Shown piece after piece: positions 5,110 through 7,117 of a stretch of 33,578 bases of DNA (within the stretch, counting starts at the first letter, position 1; the number at the start of each line of letters is the position of its first letter). The notes beneath the pieces are model-generated. The model was not told the origin of the DNA. It did no database searches and saw only the letters and a list, made by a program, of their open reading frames with translations. The DNA is from a virus. Both the position numbers and the translations under genes were made by a program. The stretch covers positions 1-33,578 of IMG/VR virus record IMGVR_UViG_3300048135_000126, one strand, 5' to 3'.

Positions 5110-5688
5110 TCAGGCAGTAGTTACAACAGCAACAGCAGAGATTTTCTCTGTAGCACCGTTAGTAGAGTTGATCTTGACACGGTAGGAACCAGCGTCAGTA
5201 GCAGCATAGGTAGCAACATCAAACGTTGTATTGGTAGCACCAGAAACGTTTGCCCATTTCTTACCAGACTTCTTCTGCCACTGATAGGTGAGCACAGAGG
5301 CATCAGCAGGAGGAGTAGCGGTAGCGGCAAGAACAAGTTGTAGAGCAGCACCAACAGCAACAGCAGTATCTGCTGGTTGTGTCTGGATGTCAATCAATAC
5401 ACTTACGTCTGCTGCTGCAGCATCATCTGCCTGAGTCTCGTTAGCATTAAGATCAGGACCAGCAATGGTTACCAGCATCTCTGCCTTATGACGGGTGTTA
5501 CCTTCACAATCAGTGAAAGTATAGTAGGACCACCAACCAGGAGCATTCAGACCACGTGCTTTGTTCTCAGCAAGTGCTGCTTCGGTGTCGTCAATAAAAA
5601 TTGTTTGCTTTGCTTGTGCGGATGCAGCAACTCCAATGCCTGCTTTGGCTTTGTTAGCGTTGCTGTCCGTTCTTCCGTAAAGGGACAT
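5110..5688 (-). CDS. Ig-like-domain virion structural protein (putative)
   Basis: A 192-aa protein with two parts. Residues 1-77 (MSLYGRTDSNANKAKAG..., FIDDTEAALAENKARG, PGWWSYYTF) resemble a cyanophage structural protein module known to me from related phages. Residues ~100-190 form a bacterial/phage Ig-like domain: alternating beta strands, the core Trp in YQWQKKSG, and the DAGSYRVKI signature. The domain has no cysteines, as is common in phage Ig domains, which are often displayed on capsids or tails and may bind carbohydrate. The start has a good GGAG ribosome site. A late promoter lies 31 bases upstream, directly after a terminator, supporting late virion expression. Exact virion location is unknown. 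Confidence 0.88.
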   Translation of the reverse strand: MSLYGRTDSNANKAKAGIGVAASAQAKQTIFIDDTEAALAENKARGLNAPGWWSYYTFTDCEGNTRHKAEMLVTIAGPDLNANETQADDAAAADVSVLIDIQTQPADTAVAVGAALQLVLAATATPPADASVLTYQWQKKSGKKWANVSGATNTTFDVATYAATDAGSYRVKINSTNGATEKISAVAVVTTA

Positions 5689-5761: not shown

Positions 5762-5968
5762 CTATTCGGATGCTTCTCTGGTGAGAATTGCTTTGGTTAC
5801 AACTTCGAGAAGTTGATCATCCATATCAGTTTTAGTTAACTTAACTGCCTTAGCAAGAATAGCAAGACAGATCTCAACAAGTTTCTCACCCAGTTCTTCA
5901 TTTTCTGGAATTTTATTAACAGCATCGGAAATAATTTTAGATGCAAATGGTAGTAAAAATGAAAGCAT
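5762..5968 (-). CDS. Small amphipathic protein, unknown function
   Basis: A 68-aa protein starting MLSFLLPFASKIISDAV, followed by amphipathic helices and an acidic/polar end. The hydrophobic N-terminus with small size recalls phage holin-like or membrane-associated proteins, but there is no clear full-length membrane span and I cannot assign a function. It is flanked by a GATAAATA late-type promoter 22 bases upstream and a strong terminator downstream, so it may be a single-gene late transcript. No good ribosome site is visible before the ATG. Confidence 0.75.
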   Translation of the reverse strand: MLSFLLPFASKIISDAVNKIPENEELGEKLVEICLAILAKAVKLTKTDMDDQLLEVVTKAILTREASE

Positions 5969-5989: not shown

Positions 5990-6096
5990 TTATTTATCCT
6001 TCTTTGTTTTTTTGCCAGGTTTTGCTGGTTTGGGTTCAGGTTCGCCGTCATCAATTTCAGGCATAACTTCAACCACTGGCTTCTTTACTTTTTTTC
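5990..6096 (-). other. Candidate -1 programmed frameshift site and in-frame C-terminal extension
   Basis: The upstream gene's last codons read GAA AAA AAG TAA, giving the heptamer A_AAA_AAG (6094-6088), the same slippery site used in E. coli dnaX. A slip back by one base bypasses the stop at 6087 and opens 32 further codons (VKKPVVEVMPEIDDGEPEP... ending KKTKKDK) to a TAA at 5990. An AAGGAGGA Shine-Dalgarno-like sequence (6108-6101) lies 7 bases upstream of the heptamer, as such stimulators do in bacteria. I see only a weak 4-bp downstream stem (AGCC-AGT-GGTT). The tail is Lys/Pro/Glu-rich, like the rest of the protein. A true indel or a separate short peptide from the ATG at 6064 are alternatives. 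Confidence 0.6.
5991..5998 (-). promoter_or_regulatory. Late-type promoter (GATAAATA)
   Basis: GATAAATA fits NATAAATA, the relaxed late-promoter form I recall being described for cyanomyoviruses. It lies 22 bases before the ATG of the 68-aa gene, similar spacing to the other late promoters here. It overlaps the last codons and stop of the -1 frame tail of the upstream gene, so its sequence is also constrained by coding if that tail is translated. Confidence 0.6.
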
Positions 6097-6864
6097 AGCT
6101 TCCTCCTTCATCTTCTTTTTAGTTCCAATGATCTTAGAAACTTTTTTGCGACGTGCAAGCAGATACTTATCAGACTTATCGTGGTCACCGTCGTTATCGA
6201 TGTCCTTGTCTTCCTTACCTACTGCATCAAGTTTCTTTTTCTCAGTAATTTCAGAACCAGTGGGTTCGTAACCTGCTTTAACACAGTTGTTAACTTCCTT
6301 GCCACCCTTCTTCTTGGTGCCCTGTTTCTTATACCCTTTCCAGCATGAGGTATTACCATTATCATCTTTACCATCCATCTTGACTTCAAAGATGTATGTT
6401 TCTCCATCCAGTTCAAAAGAAACTGACTCTTTCTTCACGTATTGCTTTTCTTCTTTCTTGCACTTGGAGCAACCTTTACCACCACAGTTAGAACAATCTC
6501 CACAGGATTCTGCAGCAACTACTTTAGTAGTATCCCTGATTTGTGCTCCCAAAGAATACTTCATACCTTGACCTGTACGCACATTAGGAGCAGGATCAGG
6601 TGCGCCAGCGTTTACTTTAATATCTTTAGCACCTTCATCACCCTTTTCTTCCTTATCGGAAAGATCAGGAATTGATGTAGAGGCATCTGCGCCACCTGCA
6701 CGTGTAGGTTGTTCTTCACCTTGCTTCTGCTCAGCAGGAATACTATCTTCATGAAGATGCCACCCAAATCCAGCACCATTTACCCACTTACCGTAGGATT
6801 CGATTAGCGCCTTAGAGAAGTCATCATCATGTTGAACGCTTGTCGTTGGTTTTTGTCTTTCCAT
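6085..6864 (-). CDS. Cys-rich, EF-hand-containing late protein, unknown function
   Basis: A 259-aa, highly charged protein (291 aa if the -1 shift at its end is used). Residues ~12-40 (DDDFSKALIESYGKWVNG) look folded; ~41-110 is a low-complexity linker. A Cys cluster at 121-135 (CGDCSNCGGKGCSKC) resembles a zinc knuckle or DnaJ-type Cys repeat. A small beta domain follows, with CWKGYKKQGTKKKGGK near 174-189, a motif I have seen repeatedly in marine phage proteins. Residues 221-232 (DIDNDGDHDKSD) match an EF-hand/dockerin calcium loop. The tail is very basic. A CATAAATA late promoter lies 30 bases before the start, so a virion or prohead role is plausible but unproven. It overlaps the gene before it by 38 nt and has no clear ribosome site. 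Confidence 0.85.
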   Translation of the reverse strand: MERQKPTTSVQHDDDFSKALIESYGKWVNGAGFGWHLHEDSIPAEQKQGEEQPTRAGGADASTSIPDLSDKEEKGDEGAKDIKVNAGAPDPAPNVRTGQGMKYSLGAQIRDTTKVVAAESCGDCSNCGGKGCSKCKKEEKQYVKKESVSFELDGETYIFEVKMDGKDDNGNTSCWKGYKKQGTKKKGGKEVNNCVKAGYEPTGSEITEKKKLDAVGKEDKDIDNDGDHDKSDKYLLARRKKVSKIIGTKKKMKEEAEKK

Positions 6865-7117
6865 TATTTGTAAAGATACTACTTTTCCTTTCTTTATTTA
6901 TGGAATCAATTGCCGCAACTTCTCTCAGGTCTTTTACCCACGCACGAAACATTTCTCCAGACTCAGTTACACAGATAGCATAGTTAACACCTGCTCTGTA
7001 TATTTTGCCTTTATCACCTGTCACTGCTGACATTACAACATCACCTTCCCTAAGTGATTTTTTCTGACGAAAACTTTCTTGCGTTGCTCTCTTCTTCAGA
7101 TCTTTAAAATTTTTCAT
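6827..7117 (-). CDS. Small basic beta-domain protein, unknown function
   Basis: A 96-aa basic protein. Residues ~1-22 are a Lys/Arg-rich helix; ~23-68 (REGDVVMSAVTGDKGKIYRAGVNYAICVTESGEMFRAWVKDLREV) have the alternating pattern of a small SH3/KOW-like barrel. From memory this resembles a recurring marine myophage hypothetical protein. The C-terminal ~25 residues look unstructured and run into the next gene. The start overlaps the stop of the nucleotidyltransferase gene as ATGA, so the two are probably translated together. RNA or nucleic acid contact is possible from charge and fold pattern, but not shown. Confidence 0.82.
   Translation of the reverse strand: MKNFKDLKKRATQESFRQKKSLREGDVVMSAVTGDKGKIYRAGVNYAICVTESGEMFRAWVKDLREVAAIDSINKERKSSIFTNNGKTKTNDKRST
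6895..6902 (-). promoter_or_regulatory. Late-type promoter (CATAAATA)
   Basis: CATAAATA on the minus strand, 30 bases before the ATG of the Cys-rich/EF-hand gene, the same spacing as the perfect late promoter at 5720. It lies inside the 3' end of the preceding 96-aa gene, which would let the late gene be expressed apart from the early operon. Confidence 0.6.

Follow-up and report, generated by a model that had tools for sequence, protein, structure and literature searches.

Sequence evidence for programmed −1 frameshifting at an A_AAA_AAG heptamer that ends an EF-hand-like protein gene of cyanophages

The window analysed here, the whole of a 33,578-nt stretch (positions 1 to 33,578 of IMG/VR virus record IMGVR_UViG_3300048135_000126), holds a gene for a 259-residue protein whose 3' end reads GCT GAA AAA AAG TAA. 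The stop codon directly follows the in-frame heptamer A_AAA_AAG, which has the X_XXY_YYZ form of a programmed −1 slippery site, and the −1 frame is open past the stop (GTA AAG AAG CCA GTG GTT ... GAT AAA TAA). Do ribosomes change frame here, or is the second frame reached in another way? The first-pass annotation of this DNA proposed a programmed −1 frameshift, and its positions for the heptamer, the stop and an upstream Shine-Dalgarno (SD)-like site, along with the predicted −1 extension and the predicted product lengths of 259 and 291 residues, proved correct (Table 1).

Table 1. Positions in the window of the genes, the proposed frameshift signals and the neighbouring reading frames
Feature	Position	Strand	Remarks
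Gene labelled 'ribonucleotide reductase alpha subunit' (PHROG 4808)	6827-7117	minus	96 aa; 38-bp overlap with the 259-aa gene
0-frame gene	6864-6085	minus	259 aa; MERQKP... family, PHROG 4359
SD-like AAGGAGG, proposed frameshift stimulator	6108-6102	minus	7 nt 5' of the heptamer (6 nt counting the next A)
Slippery heptamer A_AAA_AAG	6094-6088	minus	in frame
0-frame stop TAA	6087-6085	minus	directly after the heptamer
−1 frame tail VKKPVVEVMPEIDDGEPEPKPAKPGKKTKKDK	6088-5990	minus	32 sense codons, 6088-5993; stop, 5992-5990
GCCAG, 5' arm of downstream pairing	6080-6076	minus	7 nt past the heptamer; identical in 22/22 of the subgroup
AACC, predicted pairing with GGTT (6074-6071)	6033-6036	minus	inside the outer helix; prediction only
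CTGGC, 3' arm of downstream pairing	6018-6014	minus	22/22 of the subgroup; codons NCT GGC, N varies
Small protein ORF	5762-5968	minus	68 aa; PHROG 402, no function assigned; directly after the tail
Head protein with Hoc-like matches	5110-5688		beyond the 68-aa ORF

The 259-residue protein combines a Cys-rich CxxC stretch, a CWKGYK stretch, an EF-hand-like motif (DxDNDGDxDKSD) and a Lys-rich C terminus. PHROG 4359, a family without assigned function, fits the whole protein, and DUF7201 matches residues 137-212 (29.7 bits; Pfam cut-off 27); Defensin_big, OAF_N, DUF7367 and Pico_P2B were dropped because their scores fell under the Pfam cut-offs. None of the protein's eight PHROG matches is to a tail or coat family. 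An AlphaFold2 model built on a 34-row alignment is predicted to be mostly unstructured (mean pLDDT 49.6, pTM 0.17), and for this reason a fold search was omitted. Neighbouring genes include a cytidyltransferase and the Hoc-like head protein. The label carried by the overlapping 96-residue gene also appears in several phage records; positions 345-2663 encode a 772-residue protein that, judged by eye, resembles a real ribonucleotide reductase, and the label on the small gene may have been mistransferred. The small ORF that follows the tail occupies the same place in annotated records of named phages. At 5991-5998 on the minus strand, GATAAATA overlaps the last codons and the stop of the tail and resembles the T4-type late promoter. 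Of the 72 closed tails, 55 have ATAAATA at their end, so that the final Asp-Lys-stop may be set by the promoter of the next gene.

Homologues were gathered in five IMG/VR scans (L001-L080 and L091-L366), of which four supplied the best 80 of 232, 336, 364 and 229 matches and the fifth all 52. One scan used an alignment (A1) whose frameshift-type rows end before the site, a precaution against the site selecting itself. Phage-collection records supplied L081-L090 and L526-L533, only the former entering the junction and structure counts. Junctions were located through the EF-hand-like motif, well upstream, and read to the stop; the heptamer was not used in the search. A looser form of the motif was absent from 107 of the 367 sequences, a total made up of 366 loci plus the window, and four further occurrences ran off the contig; this form gave 170 distinct junctions, including 20 with neither heptamer, coupled ATG nor tail, which are other proteins, and one (L170) with the heptamer at the stop and no recognisable tail on a short contig. 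A stricter form gave 217 occurrences that reach a stop, or 134 unique junctions, among the matches listed, after removal of duplicates and of those with fewer than 45 nt past the stop. At seven loci in other phage contexts (L139, L141, L142, L145, L148, L149 and L155) the EF-hand-like stretch ends in His-Lys-His or similar, with another possible ORF close behind; by sequence, the motif is reused across several phage proteins. A tblastn search of phages with the 48-residue EF-hand stretch found no match, for which the low-complexity filter is perhaps responsible.

The 134 unique junctions fall into two main architectures. In 74 the heptamer adjoins the stop or is separated from it by one codon, and 73 of these have a −1 tail bearing a VE(V/I)MP motif; in the other (L026) the contig ends before the tail. 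In 70 the heptamer directly precedes the stop and a −1 tail follows. Three more (L050, L285 and L348) keep heptamer and tail with the stop one codon later, indicating that the stop itself is not the determinant; among the 73 it is TAA in 40 and TGA in 33. A second class, of 51 plus 5 junctions, has no heptamer, and there an ATG overlaps the stop (ATGA) or, in four, touches it (TAATG). In all, an ATG overlapping or touching the stop begins a homologous downstream ORF at 58 of the 134 junctions, 57 of them in a sister clade. Two junctions (L124 and L129) combine an overlapping ATG with a heptamer that ends one codon short of the stop, and two (L155 and L158) are unrelated contexts.

These junctions bear first on the alternative that the first-pass annotation considered foremost, an indel in the seven-A run; such an indel might be an error of sequencing or assembly, or a mutation that shifted the frame recently. 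The frame is indeed broken exactly at a homopolymer. However, the identical junction recurs in 73 unique homologues, which are kin and do not count as independent events, with GAA AAA AAG in 66 of them, and again in 13 records of named phages, which come from several sources. GAA AAA AAG is also present in L001 and L002, whose protein is 100% identical and one of which may be the window's own source. In none of the 217 occurrences does an uninterrupted frame or in-frame fusion lead into VE(V/I)(M/L)P, and no tail among the 134 unique junctions lacks both heptamer and coupled start; the homologue comparison that had been recommended as a check thus came out in favour of a frameshift. Because the junction is the same across homologues, we regard the indel as refuted, its probability being practically nil.

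Is the heptamer itself under constraint? A_AAA_AAG is invariant across 45 clusters (<90% identity in the flanks), a set picked for having heptamer and tail. The codon 5' of AAA AAG in the 73 unique members is GAA in 66, GGA in 4, GCA in 2 and TCA in 1; the residue varies (Glu, Gly, Ala, Ser) and the final A of the codon is constant. Elsewhere in the 45 cluster genes there are 441 other Lys-Lys pairs, of which 48 are encoded AAA AAG and just one is also preceded by A. It follows that the window's heptamer is not a product of chance. Apart from the terminal site, a single in-frame heptamer occurs in the 74 genes. The heptamer is thus kept beyond what the protein or codon usage needs: it recurs at 1 of 441 other pairs, and, in a count free of the bias in how the clusters were picked, none of the 134 junctions combines a tail with the lack of both heptamer and coupled start. 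A run of seven A, present in 67 of 74 members, would also suit transcriptional slippage, in which the −1 product arises from slipped transcripts and not from slipping ribosomes. But seven of the 74 members have only six A, and the SD-like site and downstream stem described below act on ribosomes. The final G of the heptamer, moreover, is never A, though A would be tolerable; this is a weak argument, since the set is defined by that G. We consider transcriptional slippage very improbable.

Past the 0-frame stop, it is the −1 frame that is conserved as coding sequence, as at a programmed −1 site. Over 33 aligned columns, diversity in the −1 frame is.417,.321 and.594 at the first, second and third codon positions, and pN/pS is 0.53 (0.49 for the columns preceding the conserved Met). 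In two gap-free groups, of 10 and 19 sequences, the first 13 codons contain a stop in none of 29 in the −1 frame, in 24 of 29 in frame 0 (7/10 and 17/19) and in 29 of 29 in the +1 frame (10/10 and 19/19). The tail varies in length and content. In the window it is a short Lys/Pro/Glu tail; others have KKNKKYILKA-type ends, the S-PM2 tail matches DUF3008 (6.8e-6; 26.6 bits against a curated cut-off of 24), and the Sf-CH11 tail includes a stretch annotated DUF6321. In the passages returned by a full-text search of the open-licence literature, we found no paper with DUF3008 or DUF6321.

Eighteen of 50 listed records of named phages were read. Thirteen are of the frameshift type (Sf-CH3, Syn1, S-PM2, S-CAM1, S-RIM32, S-CAM3, S-H9-2, Sf-FR1, Sf-CH11, two S-RIM44 isolates, Sf-FP1 and Sf-CH1a) and four are coupled (S-CAM4 and ACG-2014i, -j and -e); in AG-345-P14 the EF-hand-like motif was not found. 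By comparison of coordinates, 11 of the 13 frameshift-type records annotate the tail as a gene of its own starting at an internal GTG or ATG, two (Sf-CH3 and Sf-FP1) leave it unannotated, and none joins the frames. Virion proteomes of cyanophages S-PM2, Syn9 and S-SM1 are mentioned in an excerpt of PMC3037559.

The annotated internal starts raise the question of whether reinitiation after the stop produces the tail as a small protein of its own, beginning at the GTG of a GTGA overlap, at the GTG within KKPVV or at the VEVMP Met. The sister clade indeed starts its homologous ORF at an ATG that overlaps the stop (ATGA), 32 of the 73 unique members have GTGA there, and L124, inside the frameshift clade, has the ATGA overlap together with the heptamer. 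But the 73 junctions have, as their −1 codon, GTA in 39 cases, GTG in 31 and a non-start, GCA or GAA, in the remaining 3; the GTG within KKPVV is GTA in S-RIM32; and no in-frame ATG precedes VE(V/I)(M/L)P in any of the 45 clusters. The residues preceding the conserved Met are under protein-level constraint, an S-CAM1-type tail aligns with a coupled ORF right up to the junction, and reinitiation leaves the invariant heptamer unexplained. We therefore judge reinitiation unlikely, with a slim chance remaining to it, and a frameshift is the preferred explanation of the tail.

That alignment also ties the two clades together. The tail of L096, of S-CAM1 type, aligns from its first codon with coupled ORFs (VNEACGCDDK with LREECGCKDK), scoring 99 and 99 against two of them (maxima of 200 shuffles, 52 and 53) and 68 and 63 against two others (shuffle maxima, 46 and 46), so that all four tested lie above the shuffles; hence one downstream sequence appears to be expressed in two modes. 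A FastTree phylogeny of 132 upstream proteins, built without the junction, needs 2 changes of architecture, versus a mean of 43 with shuffled labels. The exceptions are L124, noted above, and L134, a frameshift-type long branch beside the coupled clade. Within the coupled clade, L310, L311, L325 and L326 have TAATG in place of ATGA and retain the downstream ORF, and L129 reads ACA AAA AAG AAA TGA, combining heptamer and overlap; its heptamer probably arose by chance, being part of a Lys run.

Upstream of the heptamer, the window's AAGGAGG has a predicted pairing energy with the anti-SD of −10.6 kcal/mol. Sites were scored by energy alone because matches to substrings of the consensus include trivial ones, and at a cut-off of −5 kcal/mol or lower, 38 of the 45 clusters, the window included, carry an SD-like site of the kind that stimulates the dnaX frameshift. 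The commonest forms are AAGGAGG 7 nt or (T)AAGGAG 11 nt 5' of the heptamer. The seven clusters that fall short have downstream stems whose z, relative to dinucleotide shuffles, runs from −2.2 to −5.2; the window's subgroup has the strongest SD-like site and a weak local stem. A trade-off between the two elements is only a suggestion, as many clusters possess both.

For the family as a whole, a stimulatory structure downstream of the heptamer is predicted; in the window alone it is weak. Compared with synonymous recoding, the 45 clusters have a mean z of −2.4 for up to 96 nt and −2.5 for 48 nt. In one group of 20, a stable stem is predicted about 7 nt past the heptamer, with 89.7% of cells paired; sliding lowers the pairing from 90% to 31-61%. 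Sixteen cells in this group changed on both sides, versus 5.9 ± 2.7 in shuffles (0 of 500 as high); two of five covariation measures lay within the shuffles (double-change pairs, 86/500; further pair types, 199/500). The window alone is not exceptional, either over 110 nt (z −1.62; 10 of 200 shuffles as low) or when compared with synonymously recoded versions of up to 96 nt (z −0.63, a value at least as low being reached by 56 of 200). In ten sequences of its subgroup the local stem shows no double changes.

The downstream stem had been described at first as weak, and locally this holds: the 48-nt stem in the window is no better than recoding (z −0.07), and was rejected as the stimulator of this subgroup. 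What the description lacked is a longer-range pairing that the window's group keeps, and GCCAG...CTGGC replaced the local stem as the candidate. All 22 unique members of the subgroup have GCCAG 7 nt past the heptamer and, further along, one CTGGC; the two ten-base stretches compared are 41-56 nt apart. CTGGC always lies within codons NCT GGC, the first residue being Pro in 13, Thr in 4, Ser in 3 and Ala in 2. The Gly there is always GGC, although the 0 frame of these genes uses GGC at 131 of its 639 Gly codons. In L037 (S-RIM32) and L083 (S-PM2), whose sequences differ, the predicted pairing reaches ten and nine base pairs.

On the host side, the genome of Cyanobium sp. FACHB-13342, which is related to Synechococcus and is not an established host, gave 41 matches to the Rfam tRNA model, and among the 40 that were read (the other being 82 nt long) there is one tRNA-Lys, with anticodon UUU. 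Two DNA patterns for tRNA-Lys had found no match where the Rfam model succeeded. E. coli likewise has a sole tRNA-Lys for AAA and AAG, and A_AAA_AAG slips well there, as an excerpt of PMC5009743 states.

Taken together, the conserved heptamer, the −1 coding, the SD-like site and a stem kept in most members support the original proposal, and we consider it highly probable that this gene undergoes programmed −1 ribosomal frameshifting of the dnaX/IS type that adds an interchangeable C-terminal module. On AAA AAG, both tRNA-Lys molecules would re-pair one base back on AAA AAA, the slip being promoted by the upstream SD-like sequence and the downstream RNA stem. Ribosomes that do not slip would stop at once and yield the 259-residue protein, and those that slip would add the −1 tail to give 291 residues; both proteins would be made, a fraction of the molecules bearing the tail as an extra C-terminal module. 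The module would differ by phage (the Lys/Pro/Glu tail in the window, DUF3008 in S-PM2, the DUF6321-annotated stretch in Sf-CH11), and in the sister clade, where the homologous sequence is a separate ORF starting at the ATGA overlap, it would be supplied unfused. On balance, though with much less assurance than for the frameshift itself, we favour the view that the same module is fused by programmed frameshifting in one clade and left unfused by coupling in its sister. The signal would then be a fixed socket for swapped domains (short tail, DUF3008, DUF6321-type, KKNKKYILKA type), the heptamer being kept and the stem re-formed from each new sequence. By analogy with other C-terminal extensions in phages, we lean to a longer form of set dose, whose additional module would serve in docking or in contact with DNA.

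Judging from their genomes, many viruses that infect ocean cyanobacteria appear to produce one protein in two versions through a built-in ribosomal slip at the end of its gene, and the signal for it is widely conserved. The annotations are to be corrected accordingly, as 11 of the 13 frameshift-type records split the product, two omit the tail and none joins the frames. Across the homologues, SD strength and stem strength form a natural series, and a single gene family includes a switch between frameshifting and coupling. A full-text search of the open-licence literature returned, in the passages it covers, no recognised report of frameshifting in this EF-hand gene.

One of the closest known systems is E. 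coli dnaX, which has the same A_AAA_AAG heptamer, an SD-like site upstream and a stem downstream, and the single tRNA-Lys UUU found likewise in the one cyanobacterium tested. The dnaX slip yields the shorter product, whereas in the phage gene it is the unshifted frame that terminates immediately, and slipping would give the longer one. The genes are unrelated, and the window's subgroup has a long-range pairing whose arms, GCCAG and CTGGC, lie 57 nt apart in the window. In IS elements with A_AAA_AAG the −1 slip extends the protein, as proposed here, but the present case involves no transposase, the module being added to a small phage protein. An excerpt of PMC5009743 gives A_AAA_AAG as the dnaX site, treats the 5' SD as a major feature and estimates that 56% of IS elements have one; it also remarks, of Ig-like modules, that how they are attached appears indifferent. 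A likeness to the frameshift pairs of phage tail and scaffold genes had been suggested for this locus, and it stands as a likeness of mechanism. In lambda gpG/gpGT, T7/T3 gene 10 and the Ig-like extensions, a longer form of a phage protein likewise carries an exchangeable C-terminal module; the likeness described is one of architecture, and the EF-hand gene is a different gene, belonging to T4-like cyanophages.
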